This document shows, piece after piece, positions 29,909 to 40,928 of a DNA stretch of 64,000 nucleotides (within the stretch, counting starts at the first letter, position 1; each line of letters opens with the position of its first letter). Made by a program: the position numbers and the translations under genes. The stretch is taken from contig NZ_KQ948422.1 in the NCBI RefSeq assembly GCF_001514065.1, positions 868,001 through 932,000 on the forward strand. Reading direction: 5' to 3'. The DNA comes from Streptomyces antibioticus. GTDB taxonomy: Bacteria; Actinomycetota; Actinomycetes; Streptomycetales; Streptomycetaceae. The notes beneath the pieces were generated by a model. It saw only the letters and a program-made list of their open reading frames with translations, did not search any database and was not told the DNA's origin.

Positions 29909-30889
29909 GTGCTCGTCCTCGACACCAACGACCTTCGGGTCGGTGACCGGATCGCGGCCTTCGAGGCGGTGGCCGCCGGTGAAGGCGGCGTCTCCTCCGT
30001 CCAGGAGGAGCAGCCCGAGGCCACGACCTGGAAACGACTCGAACTCTGGCACCTCGGCCCGCTCACGCTCTTCCACACCCAGGGCACAGGGATGCGCATC
30101 ACGCGCTCACTCCGGCAGGCGCGGCGCGATGTGATGGACAGCGTCGCGATCAATATTCACCGCCAGGGAGTCGGCGGTTTCGCCTGGGCCGACCATCGTC
30201 AGCACATCGGCCCGGACAGCGCGACCCTGCACCACATGCCGGCCGGATACGAGTACTGGTGGTCCGGCCTCGGCAGCACGCTGGCCCTGATGTTCGACAC
30301 CGAACGCCTCAGCCTGCCCGAGGAGACGATCCGCGCGTCCATCCCGACGCTCGAGCACAGCCCCATCGGACGGCTGCTGATCAACCACGTTCTCGGCATG
30401 CACCGCATCGCCGACCAGATCACCATGGGCCCCGAAGCCGATGCCCTCGCCTCCGCCACCATGGAACTCGTCCGAGCCTGGGTGGTGTCCGTCGCCGGCG
30501 ACGATCCCACCCGCCGGGCCGTCGCACGGGAAACCCTCCTCACCCGTGTCCTGGCCTACGCCCGCGCCCACCTCAGGGAACCCGACCTCACCCCGCAGCG
30601 GATCGCCTGGGCCCACAACACCTCCGTGCGGACGCTGTACCGGTTGTGCGACGACGGCGGAGTCAGTCTCGAGAAGTGGATCATCCGCCGCCGGCTGGAG
30701 GGCGCCCGTGCCGACCTCGCGGCCCTTCGACACGCGCACCGCACGATCGACACCATCGCCCGCAGCTGGGGCTTCACCAACCCCGCGTTCTTCTCCCGCC
30801 GCTTCCGCCAGACTTACGGCACCACGCCCAGCCAATGGCGGAGAGTCTCTCAGCAGGGCCGGCTCCTGCTCCCACCGGACGATCTCTGA
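29909..30889 (+). CDS. AraC-family transcriptional regulator
   Basis: 326 aa from GTG 29909, which has GGGAGG about 5 nt upstream; the frame is open further but without support. The N-terminal 170 residues match the AraC_binding_2 sensor type (WKRLELWHLGPLTLFHTQGTGMRITRS, SATLHHMPAGYEYWWSG). The C-terminal 100 residues have two HTH units: LTPQRIAWAHNTSVRTLYRLCDDGGVSLEKWI and TIDTIARSWGFTNPAFFSRRFRQTYGTTPSQWR. Divergent from the three-hydrolase/MBL operon, which it most likely activates. Confidence 0.92.
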   Translation: MLVLDTNDLRVGDRIAAFEAVAAGEGGVSSVQEEQPEATTWKRLELWHLGPLTLFHTQGTGMRITRSLRQARRDVMDSVAINIHRQGVGGFAWADHRQHIGPDSATLHHMPAGYEYWWSGLGSTLALMFDTERLSLPEETIRASIPTLEHSPIGRLLINHVLGMHRIADQITMGPEADALASATMELVRAWVVSVAGDDPTRRAVARETLLTRVLAYARAHLREPDLTPQRIAWAHNTSVRTLYRLCDDGGVSLEKWIIRRRLEGARADLAALRHAHRTIDTIARSWGFTNPAFFSRRFRQTYGTTPSQWRRVSQQGRLLLPPDDL

Positions 30890-30953
30890 CCAACCTCCCC
30901 GGCCGACGCCGCCGAAGGGCCGACCAAGCGCGCCCGTGTCCGGGCCCTGCGGG

Positions 30954-31130
30954 TCACGGTGCCGGAACCGTGCCCCCGGCCGGTTCCAGGGCCTGCCGGT
31001 TCTCCCCCGTCGCCCCGCGCGCGTCGAGACCGCGCGAGGCGTTCCCGGGGCCGCGGGTGAGGGCCTGGACCAACCACTGGTGAATCTCGTTCATGCTCGG
31101 CAGTGCGGGCAGCTCGGTGTTCTCCGGCAC
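30954..31130 (-). CDS. Small hypothetical protein (58 aa) at the end of the KAS III operon
   Basis: Reading frame VPENTELPALPSMNEIHQWL, then VQALTRGPGNASRG and a low-complexity tail ending AGGTVPAP. The GTG is preceded at 5 nt by a strong AGGAGG (minus strand, 31136-31141), which makes translation likely. It begins 72 nt after the KAS III stop on the same strand. The segment MNEIHQWLVQALTR resembles the opening helix of an acyl carrier protein, but no DSL phosphopantetheine site follows, so a truncated carrier protein is only a guess. The rest of the gap 30890-31202 shows nothing else. Confidence 0.45.
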   Translation of the reverse strand: MPENTELPALPSMNEIHQWLVQALTRGPGNASRGLDARGATGENRQALEPAGGTVPAP

Positions 31131-31202
31131 GGTGACCTCCTCGGACAGGAATGCTGATGCACGGACAGGGGTGGTGGACCCGACTCCAGTGGTGCCCAGC
31201 CC

Positions 31203-32216
31203 CTACGGCAGGGTGACGACCTGCCCGGCGTAGGACAGGCCGGCGCCGAAGCCGATGGTGAGGGCCAGGCCACCGCTGGAGGCCTCGCCGGCCGCGAGAA
31301 CCTCCTCGATGGCCAACGGGATCGAGGCCGCCGAGGTGTTGCCCTGGCGCACCACGCTGTGGGCCACGGCCACGTGGGGCGGCAGTTCGAGGGTTCTGGC
31401 GAGTGCGTCGACAATGCGGAGGTTGGCCTGGTGCGGGATGAAGGCGGCGAGTTGGCCGGCGGTGACACCGGCCGCCTCCAGCGCCTGCCGGGCGGCCTGG
31501 GCCATCTGGTAGACGGCCCAGCGGAAGACGGTCTGTCCCTGCATGGACAGGGCGGGGAAGCGTTCGGGCCGACCGGTTCGTAAGTCGAGCCAGGACGAGG
31601 TCTGGTCGATGGCCGTGCGCTGGGAGCCGTCGGCGCCCCAGACCACGGGGCCGACGCCTGGCACGGTGGAAGGGCCGACCACCGCCGCGCCGGCGCCGTC
31701 GCCGAAGAGGAAGGCGGTCGCACGGTCGTCGAGGTCGATGAGATCGGACATCCGCTCGGTGCCTACCAGCAGTACGTGCTCGGCGCTGCCGCCTCGGACC
31801 AGGTCGCCGGCCAGCGCGAGGCCGTGGGTGAAGCCGGCGCAGGCCGCGGACAGGTCGAATGCGGCGGCCCGTTCCGCCCCCACGAGGTGGGCGATCTCGG
31901 TGGCGGCGGCCGGGAGTTGACGGAAATGCGTGGAGGTCGCGACGATCACACAGCCGATCCGGTCAGGGGTGACCCCGGCCATGGCCAGGGCCTTGCCGGC
32001 GGCCGCCACGCCCATGGACGCGATCGTCTCCTGCGGACCTGCCCAGCGGCGTTCGGCGATACCGGAGCGGTCCCGTATCCACTGGTCGCTGGAGTCGATC
32101 CTGGGCGCTATCTCGTCGTTGGTCACCACGCGGGACGGCAGGTAGCCGCCCACGCCGAGGATGCGGGCGTGTGCCGGTGCGACCGGCTGGCGAAGCACTG
32201 AGGCGGTGGCGGACAC
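31203..32216 (-). CDS. 3-oxoacyl-ACP synthase III (KAS III, FabH-like)
   Basis: 337 aa. Cys126 in LSAACAGFTHGL, His262 in IPHQANLRI and Asn293 in VRQGNTSAASIPLA form the KAS III Cys-His-Asn set; the N-terminus ILGVGGYLPSRVVTNDEI, ERRWAG and FLFGDGAGAAVV are standard. It condenses an acyl-CoA (or other acyl donor) with malonyl-ACP. GTG 32216 has GGAG 7 nt upstream and gives the usual length; the frame is open to 32306. It is not in a fab operon: neighbours are SRPBCC, SDR, PlsC-like and RibB genes, so a secondary-metabolism role is likely. Confidence 0.93.
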   Translation of the reverse strand: MSATASVLRQPVAPAHARILGVGGYLPSRVVTNDEIAPRIDSSDQWIRDRSGIAERRWAGPQETIASMGVAAAGKALAMAGVTPDRIGCVIVATSTHFRQLPAAATEIAHLVGAERAAAFDLSAACAGFTHGLALAGDLVRGGSAEHVLLVGTERMSDLIDLDDRATAFLFGDGAGAAVVGPSTVPGVGPVVWGADGSQRTAIDQTSSWLDLRTGRPERFPALSMQGQTVFRWAVYQMAQAARQALEAAGVTAGQLAAFIPHQANLRIVDALARTLELPPHVAVAHSVVRQGNTSAASIPLAIEEVLAAGEASSGGLALTIGFGAGLSYAGQVVTLP

Positions 32217-32326
32217 TGCGGAGCTCCGGGGGTGGGGACGGTCAGGGGCGGCGGACGCGGTGGGCCCGTGGTGGCGTGGGGCGCCGACCGGAGGGGGCGG
32301 GCCCACCGCGGGGAGCGCGGTGCTGC

Positions 32327-32485
32327 TCAGTCCAGGCCGCGCAGGATGTGTGGTTCACCGGGCTCGCCGGCGCAATCGGCCAGGTGCAGGGGCATCGGCT
32401 GCGACCAGTCGTCGTCGACTACCGAGGGGACGGAGACCGGCGGGGCCGTTGTCGGCGGCGGCGCGGGGTGTGCGGCCGGCTCCAT
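32327..32485 (-). CDS. Small translationally coupled protein (52 aa), unknown
   Basis: ATG 32485 lies 1 nt after the stop of the SRPBCC gene (TGACATG). The frame reads MEPAAHPAPPPTTAPP, then VSVPSVVDDDWSQPMPLHL and ADCAGEPGEPHILRGLD. Forty-five of 52 third codon positions are G or C, as expected of real genes here. A proline-rich N-terminus and acidic C-terminus are all that can be seen; no family is recognised. There is no strong ribosome site, so translation would depend on re-initiation. Confidence 0.45.
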   Translation of the reverse strand: MEPAAHPAPPPTTAPPVSVPSVVDDDWSQPMPLHLADCAGEPGEPHILRGLD

Positions 32486-32486
32486 G

Positions 32487-32909
32487 TCACACCGTCCCGG
32501 CCGGCGCGCCGCGGCCCTCCGCCCGCACCGCCAGCCGGCCGAGCCGCAGCTCGGCGACTCCCGCGAAGGCCGGCCGGAGCACGGCCGCCAGCGCCCCCCG
32601 GTGCTCGAAGGTGTGCCGGACGTGGGCACCCCCGTGATGGGCGGTCAGCTCCCAGCTGTGGTCCTCACGGAAGCCGACCGTCTCCCAGTGGGCCTCGATC
32701 AGCGGGCCCGTGATCGAGCGGTACTCCAGGAAGCCCGACAGGCCGCCTTTGACCTTGACGGGGTAACGCTGGCCGACGGCTGCGGTCCGCGGTGCCTCGA
32801 TCGACAGGAACGCGGGGTTCCAGTCGGCGAGGGCCGCGGGTTCGAGCAGGACCTGCCGGACCACGTCCACGGGGGCGTTGATCAGTACATGCGCGCTGTG
32901 AACGGTCAT
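32487..32909 (-). CDS. SRPBCC (START-like) family protein
   Basis: 140 aa. VLINAPVDVVRQVLLEPAALADWNPAFLSIE, then YPVKVKGGLSGFLEYRSI and VRHTFEHRGALAAVL follow the START/SRPBCC fold, a hydrophobic-cavity domain used by polyketide cyclases, lipid carriers and stress proteins. With KAS III and a ketoreductase beside it, binding or cyclising an acyl or ketide intermediate is plausible (inference). It starts 3 nt after the SDR stop. Confidence 0.8.
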   Translation of the reverse strand: MTVHSAHVLINAPVDVVRQVLLEPAALADWNPAFLSIEAPRTAAVGQRYPVKVKGGLSGFLEYRSITGPLIEAHWETVGFREDHSWELTAHHGGAHVRHTFEHRGALAAVLRPAFAGVAELRLGRLAVRAEGRGAPAGTV

Positions 32910-32912
32910 CGC

Positions 32913-33686
32913 TCAGTACCTGACCCCTCCGTCGGCATGGACCGTGGTGGCGTTGATGTAGTCGGCCGCGGGGCCGGCCAGGAAAGCGATGGTGTCCGCC
33001 ACCTGCTGGCCGTCGCCCAGCCCCATCAGGGCACGGTTGGCCATGTAGCTGCGCCGCTCGGGGTCCACGGCCGTACCCATACCGGTGTCCAGGATCCCCG
33101 GCGCGAGGGTGACGGTACGGACGTTGTAGGCGGCGTATTCCTGAGCGACGCTCAGGGCGAGGCCGTGCAGACCGGCCTTGGAGGACGCGTAGGCGGCCTG
33201 GCCGGCGTTGCCCATCGTGGCAGCGAGCGAGGACACGTAGACGATCCGCCCGTAGCGGCCCCGCATCATGACCTTCAGGGCGTGCTTGGTGGCGAGGAAC
33301 GCGCCGCGCAGGTTGACCCGGTGGACCTCGTCCCAGTCCTCCACCGGCATCTGGACCAGGAGTTGGTCGCGGGCGATGCCGGCGTTGTAGACGAGCACGT
33401 GGAGCCGGCCGAGCCGGCGGGCCGTGGCGGCGAGGTTTTCGGCGGTGTCGCCCTCGGCCACATCGCCGGCGACGAGATGCAGCCGGTCACCGTACTTGTC
33501 GGCGAGCCGTGCCAGGTCCTCCGACGGGGAGCGGTGGTTGGCGACCACCCGGGCGCCCTGCCTCAGCAGGGTCTCTGTGGTCAGCAGCCCCAGCCCCCGC
33601 CCTGCACCGGTGACGATGACCACCCGCCCGTCATGGGCGCCGGGCGGGACGACCGGGGTGTCGGCCGTTTCGTGGCCACTGTTCAT
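32913..33686 (-). CDS. FabG-like SDR (3-oxoacyl-ACP reductase type)
   Basis: 257 aa. Cofactor motif VTGAGRGLGLLT, NAGIARDQL, and the catalytic set Ser in VYVSSLAAT with YASSK (Tyr-x-x-x-Lys), then PGILDTGM. NADP preference is suggested by the basic HRS after the second strand. ATG 33686 overlaps the stop of the preceding gene (ATGA) and is favoured over ATG 33701 because GGAGA lies at the right distance. It should reduce the beta-keto product of the KAS III. Confidence 0.92.
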   Translation of the reverse strand: MNSGHETADTPVVPPGAHDGRVVIVTGAGRGLGLLTTETLLRQGARVVANHRSPSEDLARLADKYGDRLHLVAGDVAEGDTAENLAATARRLGRLHVLVYNAGIARDQLLVQMPVEDWDEVHRVNLRGAFLATKHALKVMMRGRYGRIVYVSSLAATMGNAGQAAYASSKAGLHGLALSVAQEYAAYNVRTVTLAPGILDTGMGTAVDPERRSYMANRALMGLGDGQQVADTIAFLAGPAADYINATTVHADGGVRY

Positions 33687-34243
33687 GAGGAGGTCTCCCA
33701 TTCGGATGGCGAGGCGGAGGCCGCCGGGGCGAAGAAGTGGTTGCTGAGCGGGAGGATCCGGTCCTCGGTGAGGGTGCGTACCGTGCGCAGCCGGCCGAAG
33801 CGCAGGTTCGACGCCTCGGAATCCGGCTCCTCCAGCAGCAGGGGCGGCAGGAGGGCGTCCGGAAGGCTGGCGAGCATCCGGTCGGTGTCGCGCAGGAAGC
33901 GCAGTCCGCGCCGGCGGAGGTCGTCCGGCAGCCAGTCGAGAGCGGTCAGGTGGAGGTACGCCAGGGCACCGTCAGTGGTGACCTTGATCCGGTCCGCGAG
34001 CTCGGCCGGGATGGAGGCGGCTTCCTCGACGTACATCGGGATGGTGGTGTCCTCCTCGCCCAGCATGACGAGGACGTTCCCGCCGTCGGCGAGGTGGTCG
34101 AGCACAGAGGCTGCCTCGGCTGGGGAGGGCCACAGCCCGGAAGGGACATAGTGTCCCGGGTCCGCGGCGGACCAGAGGAGCCGGGGAGGTCCGTCGAAGA
34201 CCACCAGGGTGTTGCCGTGTCTCAGGATCGGGGACGAATGCAT
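33683..34243 (-). CDS. Protein of unknown function in the ribB-KAS III operon
   Basis: 186 aa. I do not recognise it. It has an alpha/beta look (NTLVVFDGPPRLLWSAADPGHYVPSG, VLDHLADGGNVLVMLGEEDTTIP, ALAYLHLTALDWLP) without a signal peptide or membrane segment. A row of Asp/Glu-rich loops and no conserved Cys are seen. It is locked into the operon: 7 nt after the acyltransferase stop and overlapping the SDR start by 4 nt, so a role in the same pathway is very likely. Confidence 0.7.
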   Translation of the reverse strand: MHSSPILRHGNTLVVFDGPPRLLWSAADPGHYVPSGLWPSPAEAASVLDHLADGGNVLVMLGEEDTTIPMYVEEAASIPAELADRIKVTTDGALAYLHLTALDWLPDDLRRRGLRFLRDTDRMLASLPDALLPPLLLEEPDSEASNLRFGRLRTVRTLTEDRILPLSNHFFAPAASASPSEWETSS

Positions 34244-34250
34244 GAGGATG

Positions 34251-35492
34251 TCACCCCACCGGAGTCGAGTCAGTGCTGTGGTCCGCAGTCAGCCGGGAGA
34301 GAAGGGCGGCGGCCCGGCTCTTGCGGTCCTCGGTGCGTGTGTCGGGTGCGGGGGCGGCGACGATGCCGCGTAACTGGTCCACCGCGCCGGCGCTGTCGCC
34401 GGTCTTGATCAGCCCTTCGGCGTAGGCCATGGGGTAGCGGGTGTCAGGGGCCCCGATCCTGGCGGCGTGCTGCAGATGCCGCAGACCTTCCTCCGGCCGG
34501 CCGCCGAGCCTCCGGGGTGCCTCGAGGTACCAGCGACCCATGAGGTAGTTGCCCATCAGGTGGTCGGGGTTCGCGTCGATCACCCGCTGGGCTTCGCGGC
34601 GCAAGCGGGGCAGCAGCCGCAGCCGTCGTGGCAGGGAGGCGTCCATCATGCGTAGCCCGGTGAGCCGGGCTTCCACTGCCAGGGCGTCCACATTGCCCGG
34701 GTCCATTCGCTTGGCCAGGGTGACCAGGGACGCGGCCTGTTCCATCCGGTGGGCGGCCGGCTGGGTGTCGGTACGGCTGAGCATGGTCTCGACGGTTGCC
34801 CCGGCCCGGTCGGCCAGCTCCTGGGCCGCCTGCCGGTCGCGCTGCGGTGTGGGGTTACGGGCGGCGTCCACCAGCGACACCAGTGCCTCGCGGGCCGCCA
34901 CGGACAGAGCCGCCACGCGTTGGGGACGGGGCAGCGCGGAGTCGACGTCCAGGGGGGCGCCGAACACGACCCGTATCTCGGTCCGGCGGGGCAAGTACGC
35001 CCCCTTGGGCAGGACGTGCTGAACGCCCCACATGCCCACCGGGATCACCGGTACACCGGACCGGACGGCAAAACGGAACGCGCCGTCCTTGAAGGGCAGC
35101 AGCGGCCACCCGGGGCCGCGGGTCCCCTCCGGGTAGACCACGAGGATGCTGCCCTCGGTGAACACCCGCCCCACCGACGCGAGCAGGTCCCGGCCGGGCT
35201 GGTCGCGATCGACCGGTATGCCGCCCATCACGGTCGTCCACCTGCGGCGCACCGGATGGACGAACGCCTCCGCCTTGGTCAGGAAGTAGGACTTGGGCCT
35301 GTCGCGCAGGAGGTTCATCAGCGCGTCCTGCACGAAGTGGTCGGCGAAACTGCTGTGGTTGGGGACAAGGACGAAGGGTCCGTCCGCCGGTATGTGGTGA
35401 ACTCCTTCGACGCCGGCGAGGTACCGGTGCACGACTGCCGGCCGGGAGACGGCATGCGTGACACCGGTAATCAGCCGGTCAGTGCGGCTCAC
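34251..35492 (-). CDS. PlsC-like acyltransferase with C-terminal helical repeat region
   Basis: 413 aa. The N-terminal 215 residues are a PlsC/LPLAT domain: the HX4D motif is NHSSFADHF, followed by TKAEAF, GGIPVDRD, VVYPEGTRGPG and a VPVIPVGMWG block. The remaining 190 residues (from about GATVETMLSRTD) are helical with tandem ALA-like TPR-type signals (GNVDALAVEARLTGLRM, NPDHLMGNYLMGRWYLEAP), unusual for this family. It probably transfers an acyl chain to a small phosphorylated or hydroxylated acceptor. GTG 35492 overlaps the ribB stop (GTGA), so acceptor-forming and acylating enzymes would be translated together. Confidence 0.87.
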   Translation of the reverse strand: MSRTDRLITGVTHAVSRPAVVHRYLAGVEGVHHIPADGPFVLVPNHSSFADHFVQDALMNLLRDRPKSYFLTKAEAFVHPVRRRWTTVMGGIPVDRDQPGRDLLASVGRVFTEGSILVVYPEGTRGPGWPLLPFKDGAFRFAVRSGVPVIPVGMWGVQHVLPKGAYLPRRTEIRVVFGAPLDVDSALPRPQRVAALSVAAREALVSLVDAARNPTPQRDRQAAQELADRAGATVETMLSRTDTQPAAHRMEQAASLVTLAKRMDPGNVDALAVEARLTGLRMMDASLPRRLRLLPRLRREAQRVIDANPDHLMGNYLMGRWYLEAPRRLGGRPEEGLRHLQHAARIGAPDTRYPMAYAEGLIKTGDSAGAVDQLRGIVAAPAPDTRTEDRKSRAAALLSRLTADHSTDSTPVG

Positions 35493-36142
35493 TTCGCCTC
35501 TGCGGTCTGGCGCGCGGCGAACTCCCGCAGCTTCTCGATGCTGGTGAGGACCAGGCCCTCACGACGGGCGAACTCGGCCAGCTGAGGCAGGCGCGCCATC
35601 GTGCCGTCCTCAAGGATGATCTCGACGATGACGCCGGCCGGGGCGAGACCCGCGAAGCGGGCCAGGTCGACGGCCGCCTCGGTGTGGCCCGGGCGCTCCA
35701 GGACGCCGCCCGGCCGGGCGATCAGCGGGAAGATGTGGCCGGGGCGGCGCAGGTCCTCGCTGGTGCCGTTGAGCATCAGGTCGATCGTCTTGGCGCGGTC
35801 CGGGGCGGATATACCGGTGGTGACACCGTGCTCCGGGCCCGCGTCGACGCTGACGGTGAAGGCGGTGCCGTTGTGGTCCTCGTTGCGTTCCACCATCGGA
35901 GGCAGCCGCAGTTCGGCGGCGCGCTCCTCGGTGACGGACACGCATACCAGGCCGCGGCCGTGCGTGATCATGTAGTTGATGGCGGCGGCGTCGGCGAACT
36001 CGGCCGCGACGATCAGGTCGCCTTCGTTCTCCCTGTCTTCGTCGTCCACTACGACGATCAGCTCGCCGCGGGCGATGGCCGCGACCGCCTTCTCGGCTTC
36101 GTCGAGAACGATCGAGGGGGCGTCCAGGGGCTGCACGGTCAT
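35489..36142 (-). CDS. ribB: 3,4-dihydroxy-2-butanone-4-phosphate synthase (RibB), stand-alone
   Basis: 217 aa. Converts ribulose 5-phosphate to 3,4-dihydroxy-2-butanone 4-phosphate (DHBP) plus formate. Active-site motifs are intact: VVDDEDRENEGDL near the N-terminus, ITHGRGLVCVSV, GISAPDRAKTI, and GHTEAAVDLARFAG. There is no fused GTP cyclohydrolase II, and no ribA, ribD, ribE or ribH nearby. Its first-gene position in an operon with KAS III, SDR and PlsC-like genes is unusual for riboflavin synthesis. ATG 36142 has AAAGGAAG upstream. No FMN riboswitch is recognisable in the leader; instead there are inverted repeats shared with the MMPL gene. Confidence 0.93.
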   Translation of the reverse strand: MTVQPLDAPSIVLDEAEKAVAAIARGELIVVVDDEDRENEGDLIVAAEFADAAAINYMITHGRGLVCVSVTEERAAELRLPPMVERNEDHNGTAFTVSVDAGPEHGVTTGISAPDRAKTIDLMLNGTSEDLRRPGHIFPLIARPGGVLERPGHTEAAVDLARFAGLAPAGVIVEIILEDGTMARLPQLAEFARREGLVLTSIEKLREFAARQTAEAK

Positions 36143-36240: not shown

Positions 36241-36385
36241 ACTGATGTCAGAGCATGCATGTTATGACATCGGTGATGCAACACCATCTTGTTAAAGTTT
36301 TGAGTAAAGCTGCGGGATTTTCATTGGGCGGAAGGGGTGACAACCCCCTGGGACCCGAGGTATTCATGACGTATCATCGAATGAT
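36241..36385. promoter_or_regulatory. Further operator-like repeats between ribB and marR
   Basis: Within the 318-bp gap 36143-36460, ACTGATGTCA (36241-36250) and TGACATCGGT (36265-36274) form a 9/10 inverted repeat with a 14-bp spacer. TCGGTG-ATGCAA-CACCAT (36270-36287) and TTCATG-ACGTAT-CATCGA (36363-36380) keep the 6-6-6 layout of the perfect site with looser arms, and ATCAT-CGA-ATGAT (36373-36385) is a perfect short palindrome. I could not assign -10/-35 elements with confidence. Confidence 0.5.
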
Positions 36386-36460
36386 GTTGCATTGATGTTT
36401 CCTCATCGGCATATGCGAACGATGAGCGAGCCGAATCTCTCCACGATCGTGAGGTGTCGC

Positions 36461-36955
36461 ATGCCCCCGACCACGCCCGCCCCAGCCGCGGCGCGCACGC
36501 AGGAAGACACGGAACTGCGCTATCTGATCCTGGCGGCCCAGCGGGAAGGCGCCCGGTACCTGGCCGCCCAGCTCAGGCCGCTGAACCTGACGCCGGCGCA
36601 GGCAGAAATCCTGCTCGTGCTGTCGGAGCGGGCCCCGCTCACGCTCGCCGAGGTGGGGCGCCTCATCGTGTGCGAGAGCGGCAGTCCGAGCCGCATCGTG
36701 GACACGCTGGTCAAGGGCGGGCTGGTCAGTCGGGAGCCGGGACAGGTGGACCGCCGAGTGGTGTACCTGGGCCTCACGGCCGAGGGCGAGGACCTGCTGC
36801 CGGTTCTGCGGGGCATCGACGCGGCGGTGGACGCGGCGGCGGGTGACCAGCTGAGCGCCAACGAGAAGCGCGTGATGATCGGCGCCCTGCGCCGGGCCAT
36901 CGACGGTACCGTCAGCGGCGACGCCCTGGCGGCCCGCTTCCCGCGCAACGGGTGA
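36461..36955 (+). CDS. MarR-family transcriptional regulator
   Basis: 164 aa from ATG 36461 (GAGG 6 nt upstream; earlier in-frame starts lack a site). Winged helix: LNLTPAQAEILLVLSERAPLTLAEVGRLIVCESGSPSRIVDTLVKGGLVSREPGQVDRRVVYLGLTAEG. The N-terminal and C-terminal helices for dimerisation are present. It is divergent from the ribB operon, and inverted repeats occur before both genes and before the MMPL exporter, making it the leading candidate for the regulator of that regulon. MarR proteins usually release DNA on binding phenolic or lipidic ligands. Confidence 0.88.
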   Translation: MPPTTPAPAAARTQEDTELRYLILAAQREGARYLAAQLRPLNLTPAQAEILLVLSERAPLTLAEVGRLIVCESGSPSRIVDTLVKGGLVSREPGQVDRRVVYLGLTAEGEDLLPVLRGIDAAVDAAAGDQLSANEKRVMIGALRRAIDGTVSGDALAARFPRNG

Positions 36956-37219
36956 ACCACGGCAGAACCTCTGGGCGGGACCTCTCAACTGATACGGACG
37001 GCACAGCGCGTACACCCCCATCTGTATCGCCTCGGAGAGGCACGCAAAATCTAGAGGCCCCACAGAACGATCACAAGCACGCGGAGTTAAGGCTCGATTA
37101 CGGGTCGGTACGACAGCAGTGCAGTTGCCCCGTGTGACCTGCTCCAGCGGCCCTCGGACACGGTCTCTCGCAGCAAGCCGATCTTGTCACCAGCTCGACA
37201 CGACTGGAGTATCTGCGCC

Positions 37220-37882
37220 ATGAACGCGATCCGCACGGCCAGGGCGCGCGCCCGCGAGGAGCTGATCGACAAGATCAAAATGTCGGCCCGCGGGCAACTC
37301 GCGCTCCAGGGGGCCGCGTCCCTGTCGCTGCGCGCAGTGGCGCGTGAGCTTGGCATGACCTCGTCGGCCGTCTACCGGTACTTCCCCAGCCGCGACGACC
37401 TGCTCACCGCGCTCATCGTGGACGGCTTCGACGCGCTCGGCGAGTGCGCGGAAGACGCGGCGGCCGACGCGCCGTCACACAGCACGCCGGCCGCCCGTTG
37501 GCAGGTCGTCTGGGAGGCCGTACGGGCCTGGGCGGTGGCGAACCCGCACGAGTACGCGCTGCTCTACGGCTCCCCCGTGCCCGACTATGCGGCCCCTGAG
37601 AACACCGTGGGCCCAGCGGCCCGGGTCGGCCTGGTGCTCATCGCCCTGGCCGGCGAGGCCCTGTCACAAGGCACCCTGCAGCCGGTGCAACGGACGGTCC
37701 CGGTGGTGGAGTCCGCGGCGGGCGGACTGCCGAACTGGGCAGCTGCGCGCCTGGTGGAGTGCTGGACCCAGCTCTTCGGCCTCATCAGCTTCGAGTTGTT
37801 CGGGCATCTACGGGGCGTGGTCGAGGAGCCGGGCGAGTTCTTCGCTCAGACGGTGCGCGAGACCGGCGCGTGGCTGGGCTGA
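37220..37882 (+). CDS. TetR-family transcriptional regulator
   Basis: 220 aa. HTH: SARGQLALQGAASLSLRAVARELGMTSSAVYRYFPSRDDLLTALI. The C-terminal domain contains RAWAVANPHEYALLYGSPVPDY, a pattern of TetR regulators with a WHG-type ligand domain, and ends QLFGLISFELFGHLRG. ATG 37220 has GGAG about 10 nt upstream. It lies 264 bp after marR; that gap (36956-37219) shows GTCG-GTA-CGAC near 37111 but nothing conclusive. It converges on and overlaps the next gene by 37 nt. Confidence 0.87.
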   Translation: MNAIRTARARAREELIDKIKMSARGQLALQGAASLSLRAVARELGMTSSAVYRYFPSRDDLLTALIVDGFDALGECAEDAAADAPSHSTPAARWQVVWEAVRAWAVANPHEYALLYGSPVPDYAAPENTVGPAARVGLVLIALAGEALSQGTLQPVQRTVPVVESAAGGLPNWAAARLVECWTQLFGLISFELFGHLRGVVEEPGEFFAQTVRETGAWLG

Positions 37883-38280
37883 GCGTCCGCCGCCCAGTCG
37901 CGTATCGCCGCGGTGTGCGCCGACATCAGCAGAGCGATGGTCTGGGCCCGGCTGCGTGAAGGCGTGTCGTTCCAGGCGCACAACAGCTCCCAGTCGTCGA
38001 AATGCGCTGTGCCGTGGGGGTCGACCCGGCTGCGGATGACCGACAGGGCCAGCCGGGAGGTCCCGTTCTGCGCTCTCGCGTCGCCGGTCGCCGCCCACAG
38101 CAGGGCGCCGGTCAGGCTGGCCGCCTCCGGCCGGTGCGGGGAACCCACGTACAGCAGCCCCTCGCCGCGGCACCAGCCGCGCTCGGCGATCAACCGGGCT
38201 CCGCGCCGGAAGATGCCGCTCACCAGCGGCAGGACCGCGACGGGCTGCTGGAGGAGGGGAGGCACGGATGACGTCGTCAT
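37846..38280 (-). CDS. DUF6197-like hypothetical protein
   Basis: 144 aa. The sequence RRGARLIAERGWCRGEGLLYVGSPHRPEAASLTGALLWAATGD, then DWELLCAWNDTPSRSRAQTIALLMSAHTAAI resembles the small actinobacterial DUF6197 family (helical, with the RGWC motif), of unknown function. The last 37 nt overlap the 3' end of the TetR gene on the opposite strand. The start at ATG 38280 has only weak ribosome-site support. The call rests on pattern memory, not on a search. Confidence 0.6.
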   Translation of the reverse strand: MTTSSVPPLLQQPVAVLPLVSGIFRRGARLIAERGWCRGEGLLYVGSPHRPEAASLTGALLWAATGDARAQNGTSRLALSVIRSRVDPHGTAHFDDWELLCAWNDTPSRSRAQTIALLMSAHTAAIRDWAADAQPSHAPVSRTV

Positions 38281-38505: not shown

Positions 38506-40773
38506 TCACCGCAGCAGGCTGCCGGAGGCGGGCAATTCCGAGCCGGTGGGCGGCAGTTCGGTGTCCGCGCCGGACGGCCCCTGAGCGTCGGTGACCGTCG
38601 CGCTGTCGGCGACCGGTGCCGCGGGGCGGACCTTGCGGCCCCACACGCGGTCACCCAACAGCAGCAGCGTGGCCGGCATGACCAACAGCCGGATCACGAG
38701 GGCGTCCAGCACGACGGCGGCGGCGAGGCTGATGCCCAGTTCGCGCACGATGCTGATCTGGGCGCTGGTGAAGGAGAGGAAGACGGCGACCATGATGGCG
38801 GCGGCGCCGTTCACCAGCCCGGCGGTACGGGCCAAGCCGCCTAGCACCGCATCGCGGTGGCCGGCGCCGTCCAGCCGCATCTCCCGCATCCGGCCGATCA
38901 TGATCACCATGTAGTCCATGCTCAGGCCGAACATGACGGCGAAGAGCATCAGCGGGGTGACGCTGTTGATGGAGTGGTCCGTGCCGCTGGCCACGAGGGT
39001 CAGGAAGCCCAGACTGGCGCCGACGACCAGCACGTTGAAGGCGAGGGCGAGCAGCGGCAGCACCATCGAGCGGAAGGCCAGGTAGAGGATCAGGAAGCTC
39101 AGCAGGGCGACGGTCAGGACCACCAGCGGGATGGAGTGGAGGACCAGGCTGTCGAAGTCGGAGCCGGTGGCGGTGGCACCGGCGAGTTCCGCGGTGACCC
39201 CGGGGCCGGTCTCGCTCTTCAGCTGCGAGCGCAGGTCGCTGACCAGGTGGTGGGCCGCCGAACTGTCCGGATCGGCATCCGGAGTGACCACGACGCGGGT
39301 GACCAGGGTGTCGCCGACCTGAGTCCACAACTGCCCGACCGCCGCCTTGCCCGCGGCGTCCAGCCCGGTGCCGTCGGCGAGCGCCTGGGGCAGCGAACCG
39401 GCGGGCAGGCCCAGGGTGCTGACCGCTTGCACACCGTCGGCGCCCTTGGCGCTCCCCGCGTGGTCCGCGATGCTCGTGGCGCTCTTGAGCAGCGCGGCGG
39501 AATCCTTGGCGTCGGCGGTCAGGACCACCTGGACAGGGAACATGGCACGGATGCCGATGTCCTGCTTGATGCGCTCCATACCGACCCGGGCACTGTCATC
39601 GGAGGGCAGGATGCTCGCACTGGCCACCGGTACGCGCAGCGTCAGCTGAGTGGCCGGCCACGCCAGGGCGGCGAACCCGACGACGAGTGCGGCGAGGATC
39701 AATCCCGGACGCCGGGAGAACCGGCCGGGTCGCGGCGGAGCGGCCGCAGCGGCTGCGTCCTTCTTCTTGCGGCGGCGCAGCGTACCGGCGTTGATGCGGT
39801 GTCCGAGCAGGCTCAGCACCGCGGGCAGGAGCGTCATCGCCATGGCGACGGCCACGACCGCCACGGCCGTGCCGCCGAGGGCGATGCTGGTGAAGGACAT
39901 GGCGCGGGGGATGAAGAGCGCGGACAGCGCGACCACCACGGCCAGGCCGCTGAACAACACCGAGTGCCCCACGGTACGCATGGAGCGCTCCACGGCGGCC
40001 GGCACGTCCTGCCCCTCGGCGAGTTCCTCACGGAAGCGTTTGATGATGAACAGCGAGTAGTCCACGGCTACGGCCAGGCCGACCATGGAGACGATGTTGG
40101 TGAAGAGGCTGTTGACGTCGGTGACTTGCGCCATTCCGTAGCCGAGGGCCTGGGTCACGACCAGCGTGAAACCGGCCAGGACCAGGGGCACCACCATCGC
40201 GACCACGGATCGGAAGACCAGCAGGAGCACGACGAAGAGGACCGGGAAGGCGATCATCTCGGCCCGCGTGACGTCCTCCTTGGAGTGGACGTTCAGCGCG
40301 TAGTCCAGGGCCGGGGCGCCGGTCACGTCCACCTCCACGTCCTTGCCGACCGCGGCCCGCACATCGCTCTGCACGTCGGGTACGACGTTCTGCACCGTCG
40401 TGCTGTCACCGCTGAAGCCGACCTGCAGAAAGGTCGTCCGGCCGTCCTTGGACACCCACTCGGGGTGGGTGCGCTCGTCCGTGACGGTGACGACACCGGG
40501 ACGCTGTACCGCCTGACGTGCCTCGGCGACCGCGCCCTGCACCGAGCCGCTGGAGTCGTGCAGGACGACCAGGAGGGAGTTGGGCGCTTCCTTGAATGCC
40601 CGCTCAAGTGTGTGCTGCGCCTGCACCGACTCACCGCGCGGATCGGAGAAGCCGCCGGCCTTCAACGCCCCTTCGAGCTGGAGGGCGAAGGGCGCGGCCA
40701 GGACGAGCAGCAGCAGCCAAGCAGCGATCACCGCCTTCGGCCTGCGCACGGACAGGGAAATCGGATTCTTCAT
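38506..40773 (-). CDS. MMPL-family transporter (RND superfamily)
   Basis: 755 aa. One N-terminal helix, an extracytoplasmic porter domain, helices 2-6 (including IAFPVLFVVLLLVFRSVVAMVVPLVLAG, DYSLFIIKRFREEL), a basic cytoplasmic linker, a second porter domain and helices 8-12 with the partner motif DYMVIMIGRMREM. This is the actinobacterial MMPL layout used for exporting lipids and polyketides, and the proton-relay Asp-Tyr pairs are present in both halves. ATG 40773 has AGGAG 7 nt upstream. Perfect and near-perfect copies of the ribB-operon operator lie 82-155 nt upstream, so the likely cargo is the product of that operon. Confidence 0.93.
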   Translation of the reverse strand: MKNPISLSVRRPKAVIAAWLLLLVLAAPFALQLEGALKAGGFSDPRGESVQAQHTLERAFKEAPNSLLVVLHDSSGSVQGAVAEARQAVQRPGVVTVTDERTHPEWVSKDGRTTFLQVGFSGDSTTVQNVVPDVQSDVRAAVGKDVEVDVTGAPALDYALNVHSKEDVTRAEMIAFPVLFVVLLLVFRSVVAMVVPLVLAGFTLVVTQALGYGMAQVTDVNSLFTNIVSMVGLAVAVDYSLFIIKRFREELAEGQDVPAAVERSMRTVGHSVLFSGLAVVVALSALFIPRAMSFTSIALGGTAVAVVAVAMAMTLLPAVLSLLGHRINAGTLRRRKKKDAAAAAAPPRPGRFSRRPGLILAALVVGFAALAWPATQLTLRVPVASASILPSDDSARVGMERIKQDIGIRAMFPVQVVLTADAKDSAALLKSATSIADHAGSAKGADGVQAVSTLGLPAGSLPQALADGTGLDAAGKAAVGQLWTQVGDTLVTRVVVTPDADPDSSAAHHLVSDLRSQLKSETGPGVTAELAGATATGSDFDSLVLHSIPLVVLTVALLSFLILYLAFRSMVLPLLALAFNVLVVGASLGFLTLVASGTDHSINSVTPLMLFAVMFGLSMDYMVIMIGRMREMRLDGAGHRDAVLGGLARTAGLVNGAAAIMVAVFLSFTSAQISIVRELGISLAAAVVLDALVIRLLVMPATLLLLGDRVWGRKVRPAAPVADSATVTDAQGPSGADTELPPTGSELPASGSLLR

Positions 40774-40886: not shown

Positions 40887-40896
40887 TTTGTCATCA

Positions 40897-40928
40897 TGCA
40901 TGGTGGAACATCGATGACGCAACACTCA
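40897..40928. promoter_or_regulatory. Two looser copies of the same operator
   Basis: TGCATG-GTGGAA-CATCGA (40897-40914) and TCGATG-ACGCAA-CACTCA (40911-40928) each keep one perfect arm and the 6-bp spacer. With the two sites to their left they make a cluster of four in 74 bp, all in the 356-bp gap 40774-41129 between the divergent MMPL and GH16 genes. Confidence 0.45.

Follow-up and report, generated by a model that had tools for sequence, protein, structure and literature searches.

We analysed a 64-kb stretch of the Streptomyces antibioticus genome (assembly GCF_001514065.1, contig NZ_KQ948422.1, 868,001-932,000), called the window here, and all coordinates below are positions within it. 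The subject of this study is a run of minus-strand genes headed by ribB, whose product is a synthase of L-3,4-dihydroxy-2-butanone 4-phosphate (DHBP). A first-pass annotation had described this run as an operon of eight open reading frames (ORFs) and proposed that the encoded enzymes build an acyl chain and join it to DHBP, giving a lipid or a butenolide-like signal. ORF analysis confirmed the run ribB, plsC, hyp, SDR, SRPBCC, small1 and KAS III together with its overlaps, and Pfam and NCBIfam assign the families that had been named, namely DHBP synthase, acyltransferase, short-chain dehydrogenase/reductase (SDR), SRPBCC and KAS III. The seven genes and the divergent regulator gene next to them are the following.

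35489..36142, minus strand: ribB, a solo RibB (DHBP synthase) with no GTP cyclohydrolase domain (PF00926, TIGR00506).
34251..35492, minus strand: plsC, a PlsC-like acyltransferase with a helical, TPR-like C-terminal region (PF01553, 80 bits).
33683..34243, minus strand: hyp, an unnamed protein with no family above the Pfam or NCBIfam cut-off.
32913..33701, minus strand: a FabG-like SDR ketoreductase (PF00106; TIGR01830 at 207 of 298 bits, under the cut-off).
32487..32909, minus strand: an SRPBCC protein of the Polyketide_cyc2 type (PF10604 at 28.7 bits, barely above the cut-off of 27.4).
32327..32485, minus strand: small1, 52 amino acids, with a conserved C-terminus HI(L/V)RG(L/V)D, present in all eight clusters compared below.
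31203..32306, minus strand: KAS III (FabH-like), start maybe at 32216 (TIGR00747, 357 bits against a cut-off of 292).
36461..36955, plus strand: a divergent MarR regulator, start maybe at 36392 (PF01047), also present in all eight clusters.

The reading frames of ribB and plsC share 4 nucleotides (GTGA). The hyp gene follows plsC after a gap of 7 nucleotides, the SDR gene overlaps hyp (with 33686 as the SDR start, the overlap is ATGA), SRPBCC follows the SDR gene after 3 nucleotides and small1 follows SRPBCC after 1, and the KAS III gene begins 20 or 110 nucleotides past small1, depending on the start chosen (32306 or 32216). A scan for promoters and terminators gave a signal at chance level.

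Eight clusters of this kind were compared, from seven Streptomyces genomes and one plasmid; Ru72 (L013) and G144 (L016) are the same record and were counted once. Genes in the loci of the relatives were called by a home-made script, so that starts may be off and genes may have been missed. The first-pass annotation had asked for a check of conserved co-occurrence, and the outcome is favourable: the genes for MarR, RibB, the PlsC-like protein, hyp, SDR, SRPBCC and small1 keep their order in 8/8 clusters, and for this reason the conservation of the neighbourhood is beyond chance. The 4-nucleotide GTGA overlap between ribB and plsC is retained in every one. Other genes are distributed less evenly, with an MMPL-family transporter in 8/8 clusters, KAS III in 7/8, FabF and a DUF6197 protein in 6/8 each and an intact acyl carrier protein (ACP) in 2/8. 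In G325 the contig stops just past small1, FabF and MMPL are encoded on a different contig, and the best KAS III match in the whole genome is 60%. Of 392 Streptomyces genomes, 8 (its own included) have a match to the PlsC-like protein at E<=1e-40; seven of these matches cover nearly the full length, with 60-100% identity, and one, in G253, is partial at 40%; in a class-level sample of 394 its own genome is alone in having a match. A further copy, 63% identical, is found on a Streptomyces coelicoflavus plasmid, where the cluster adjoins SARP, ScbA and ScbR genes. A phage collection yielded 11 partial matches to the acyltransferase, none covering more than 80% of the query.

Ratios of nonsynonymous to synonymous change (dN/dS), obtained with a simple counting script from the single genome pair of window and Ru72, are 0.105 for ribB, a sign of strong constraint, and lie at 0.20-0.39 in plsC, hyp, SDR, SRPBCC, KAS III, MarR, TetR, DUF6197 and MMPL.

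The RibB of the cluster scores well above curated cut-offs (PF00926, 266 bits against 26.4; TIGR00506, 224 against 177), and alignment with the host RibBA shows its motif regions to be intact, as had been claimed of its active site. Each of the seven cluster genomes contains exactly two DHBP synthase matches, the cluster copy and a frame of 657-679 amino acids. In the genome of the window the long copy is a RibBA of 432 amino acids, encoded on contig C9 close to RibE and RibH; in the other six the long copies are known from frame length and identity. The cluster RibBs are 88-100% identical among the eight clusters and 56-60% identical to the long copies or host RibBA. The possibility that this might be the sole ribB of the genome is therefore rejected, and the cluster RibB is a dedicated extra copy, since a second, longer match is present in 7/7 genomes. 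The earlier remark that no other riboflavin gene or flavin mononucleotide (FMN) riboswitch is near also holds. With RibE, RibH and RibBA of the same genome as tblastn queries, RibB alone was matched in the window; no GTP cyclohydrolase, RibE or RibH was found in its 64 kb; and Rfam gave no match there at gathering score, so that no FMN riboswitch is seen and neither mark of a riboflavin operon surrounds the gene. The GTGA overlap kept in 8/8 clusters and the ribB dN/dS of 0.105 argue that RibB is functional and linked to the acyltransferase. A spare ribB is by itself not unusual, since RibB has matches at E<=1e-50 in 176 plasmid records. Many of the records come from Rhizobium; the RibB found on many of its plasmids (e.g. 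NC_020060.1) shares about 55-61% identity with that of the cluster.

The system is not confined to 30954-36142. The region between marR and ribB contains an operator-like sequence, which recurs upstream of the MMPL gene.

36254..36282, minus strand: operator-like site 5' of ribB, the first of the two matches in the genome; all 8 marR-ribB intergenic regions contain its core.
40895..40923, minus strand: operator-like site 5' of the MMPL gene, the second genome-wide match; its core is present in 7/8 clusters, Ru72 being the exception.
38506..40773, minus strand: MMPL-family transporter, a probable exporter (PF03176, 278 bits), in 8/8 clusters (on another contig in G325).

When the 10.1-Mb genome was scanned with a pattern derived from both window sites, no third match appeared at up to 3 mismatches and a reversed control gave 0; the two exact hits are found by construction, because the pattern was written from those two sites. 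The half-site CATCGRTG occurs 18 times against a shuffle mean of 0.124, a comparison that is biased because the half-site was picked after the repeats had been seen. With an operator-like site before both and no third genomic match, the ribB operon and the MMPL gene look like one regulon. We infer from the position of the MarR gene that its product binds the site, and the divergent MarR probably switches the system through this shared operator.

As regards the chain enzymes, the PlsC-like protein belongs to the lysophospholipid acyltransferase (LPLAT)/PlsC superfamily, with PF01553 and with HX4D and EGTR motifs that are identical in 7/7 aligned copies (G364 is outside the alignment). Its predicted structure has a mean pLDDT (predicted local distance difference test) score of 46.2, with confident helices at residues 291-400 only. 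The YxxxK motif of the SDR is retained in 8/8 clusters and the Cys, His and Asn motifs of KAS III in 7/7. An intact ACP lies between KAS III and FabF in G037 and G156 and a decayed one in Ru72; no ACP was found in the remaining five of the eight clusters. At the KAS III/ACP/FabF position Ru72 is longer than the window by about 1.6 kb. A complete set of KAS III, ketoreductase, KAS II and intact ACP, as expected of a type II fatty acid or polyketide synthase-like system, is thus present in G037 and G156 only, and the window has KAS III and SDR from this set.

In three relatives a small protein ending DIM(A/G)RIF(Q/S)AV follows KAS III, at the ACP position of G037 and G156 (L014:19470-19616, L017:13221-13445 and L046:4375-4569). 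The C-terminus of small1 (HILRGLD type) is retained in 8/8 clusters, and a search with it returned only the plasmid copy already known and one match at E 9.

The profile of hyp matches the Protein Data Bank only at E 0.59 and 0.69, and the predicted structure of this protein, from a two-row alignment, has a mean pLDDT of 40.5. A profile search finds homologues in 14 of 392 Streptomyces genomes; in the class sample it occurs in 3/394, two of which had already been counted while the third (G429) is of another genus. The resulting 15 hyp loci comprise seven ribB clusters, four that adjoin AvrD (three Streptomyces, G151, G058 and G211, and G429 of the other genus) and four others. These last have hyp with PlsC-type genes, an SDR and a ketosynthase protein (G253), with KAS III-like, SDR, FabF and P450 genes (G133), with PlsC, fatty acid hydroxylase, KAS III and class V aminotransferase genes (G262), and with phosphoenolpyruvate (PEP) mutase, a thiamine pyrophosphate (TPP) enzyme, an SDR and, about 7 kb away, a PlsC-like match (G294). 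The protein is found both with and without PlsC. AvrD itself occurs in 17 of 199 Streptomyces genomes, 16 of them above the cut-off, and it is unlikely that adjacency to AvrD in 4/15 hyp loci is due to chance.

Taken together, these observations suggest a specialised-metabolite system in which RibB supplies DHBP for acylation by the PlsC-like enzyme and the product leaves the cell through MMPL, a reading to which we give a probability of about one half. RibB would convert ribulose 5-phosphate to DHBP. KAS III would build an acyl or beta-ketoacyl chain, with FabF and ACP of its own cluster or borrowed from fatty acid synthesis, and the SDR may reduce that chain. The usual acceptor of PlsC is lysophosphatidic acid, and (S)-DHBP has an sn-lysophosphatidate-like spatial arrangement around the free hydroxyl beside its phosphomethyl group; the PlsC-like enzyme could esterify this hydroxyl, in a position resembling that in lysophosphatidic acid. 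If the chain were a beta-keto chain, the ester might cyclise onto the adjacent ketone and give a 4-methyl butenolide phosphate, in a C4 version of the A-factor step. MMPL would then export the product, and MarR, acting on the operator common to the ribB operon and the MMPL gene, would switch the system. We infer all of these, DHBP as acceptor, chain, ring closure, export and MarR control, as we do any roles of hyp, SRPBCC and small1. That the extra RibB is coupled to a PlsC-like enzyme supports a role of DHBP as building block, as proposed in the first-pass annotation. Its suggestion of a butenolide-like signal is favoured indirectly by hyp beside AvrD in four genomes, but it is no more than a candidate: neither AfsA nor AvrD was found in the clusters themselves, and the ACP and FabF retained by some relatives are missing from the window. 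The earlier interpretation is thus partly supported.

The proposed logic can be set beside two known ones. In the A-factor or gamma-butyrolactone pathway AfsA acylates dihydroxyacetone phosphate (DHAP); the likeness is that a small ketose phosphate is proposed to be acylated before aldol closure, and the difference is that the clusters have no AfsA homologue, ScbA being just a neighbour of the plasmid cluster. For the AvrD/MmyD butenolides (syringolides, methylenomycin), PMC12593393 describes AvrD as condensing beta-ketoacyl thioesters with xylulose, proposes a pentulose for MmyD and reports that an mmyD mutant loses methylenomycin; in PMC11195616 an island of Streptomyces ambofaciens that carries KAS III, ACP and AvrD is interpreted as a metabolite cluster. 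The clusters described here resemble these in having KAS III, in the ACP of two relatives, in a proposed ketose partner, here its C4 derivative, and in the occurrence of hyp beside AvrD, but all eight have RibB and a PlsC-like enzyme in place of AvrD, and hyp was not found in the methylenomycin-like cluster. It is conceivable, and we put it forward only tentatively, that they represent a third bacterial route to acyl-ketose phosphates, in addition to the AfsA route from DHAP and the AvrD route from a pentulose, in which DHBP from RibB, co-translated PlsC-type acylation, MMPL export and one switch lead to a 4-methyl butenolide or an acyl-DHBP lipid; a plain acyl-DHBP lipid is a possible product.

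If this were so, an intermediate of a vitamin pathway, DHBP, would serve as a building block for specialised metabolites, a phospholipid-type acyltransferase would replace AfsA or AvrD, and genome mining by AfsA homology would overlook such clusters. The cluster is small, seemingly under one switch, and present in several species and on a plasmid, and is therefore open to testing by deletion or heterologous expression. Among the matches listed from open-licence PubMed Central literature there was no cluster that combines RibB with PlsC and KAS III.

Several observations weigh against this reading. The functions given to the cluster proteins are predictions from sequence. The PlsC-like protein shares PF01553, HX4D and EGTR with lysophosphatidate acyltransferases, but it falls below the cut-off of TIGR00530 (69.5 of 102.95 bits) and is also unlike them in its long helical C-terminal region and in its operon with RibB. 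The window and G364 clusters have neither FabF nor ACP, and neither AfsA nor AvrD has a match in any of the eight clusters. Upstream of MMPL in Ru72 only a related sequence is found and the exact motif is missing. Finally, hyp is not specific to butenolides, because it adjoins AvrD in only two (G151, G058) of the 199 genomes with their 17 AvrD carriers, and because three annotated AvrD loci, one of them methylenomycin-like, give no hyp match better than E 3; it occurs in phosphonate and other settings also.

An unlikely alternative is that DHBP is a C4 unit but not the acceptor of PlsC, so that SRPBCC or hyp would couple it, through carbon-carbon or ring chemistry, to what KAS III makes, and PlsC would acylate a compound further along the pathway or a different alcohol. 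Both SRPBCC and hyp are retained in 8/8 clusters without an assigned step, and hyp is found in loci with PlsC and in loci that lack it; yet RibB and PlsC form the most tightly coupled pair, and DHBP carries the phosphomethyl-carbinol of PlsC acceptors.

The main rival, which we regard as distinctly unlikely, sees RibB as a self-resistance copy: the product would mimic a substrate or intermediate of RibB and inhibit the host RibBA, the divergent cluster RibB would sustain the synthesis of riboflavin, and the remaining genes would make the inhibitor from other precursors. The identity of only 56-60% between the cluster RibB and host RibBA and the second, housekeeping ribB in 7/7 genomes are as such an account would predict, and there are precedents, since PMC12871164 describes a lumazine synthase conferring resistance in flavophos clusters and PMC12268802 the inhibition of DHBP synthase by phosphonothrixin. 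The Burkholderia flavophos cluster is similar in that a copy of a riboflavin-pathway enzyme lies inside a biosynthetic cluster, but its lumazine synthase is, according to PMC12871164, on the opposite strand and dispensable for production, whereas here RibB leads the operon and overlaps the next gene. A first position with an overlap into plsC in 8/8 clusters is what coupled enzymes show, and because this overlap is so strict a role as enzyme partner fits better than resistance. Nor was any phosphonate gene found among the genes searched in the eight clusters, a query set that did not include PEP mutase. An operon for membrane or stress lipids, in which PlsC, KAS III, SDR and MMPL, each of which resembles a lipid gene, would remodel the envelope while RibB merely boosts flavin supply, is very unlikely in view of the patchy spread (seven near-full-length copies and one partial in 392 Streptomyces, 1/394 in the class sample), the plasmid-borne copy by SARP, ScbA and ScbR genes, and the lack of RibE, RibH and GTP cyclohydrolase in the window.

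Other features of the neighbourhood are as follows.

37846..38265, minus strand: DUF6197 protein, probably accessory (PF19698), in 6/8 clusters.
37220..37882, plus strand: TetR regulator of uncertain membership, start maybe at 37184 (PF00440 and PF13305).
30954..31130, minus strand: the eighth ORF, probably no gene (dN/dS about 0.96 against Ru72).

The TetR gene is close to the cluster only in the window and Ru72; G037 has a 49% match about 9 kb off. The eighth ORF was rejected as a gene because, against Ru72, the sole relative found, protein and silent sites change equally freely; a family search gave no match, its query being the overlapping 30850-31077 frame, which differs from that of 30954-31130.

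Further afield, the four AvrD operons with hyp (L020, L022, L087 and L090) all contain an AAA_28-type gene, and an SDR gene adjoins in L020 and L087. Possible phosphonate or lipid clusters are seen where hyp lies beside PEP mutase and TPP enzyme genes (L089:2661-9569) and beside PlsC, fatty acid hydroxylase and class V aminotransferase genes (L088:3147-12439). The genome of the window has an AvrD gene of its own about 127 kb beyond the window (G000:C1:1059123-1060103, L095), and it too adjoins an AAA_28-type gene. Within about 15 kb of it are an ACP-FabF pair (1073826-1075353, L055), an MMPL gene and a TetR gene whose product is 54% identical to the window TetR. We do not favour this AvrD region, with the ACP-FabF pair about 14 kb on, as part of the system, the operator-like motif being absent there; its FabF is 63% identical to that of Ru72.

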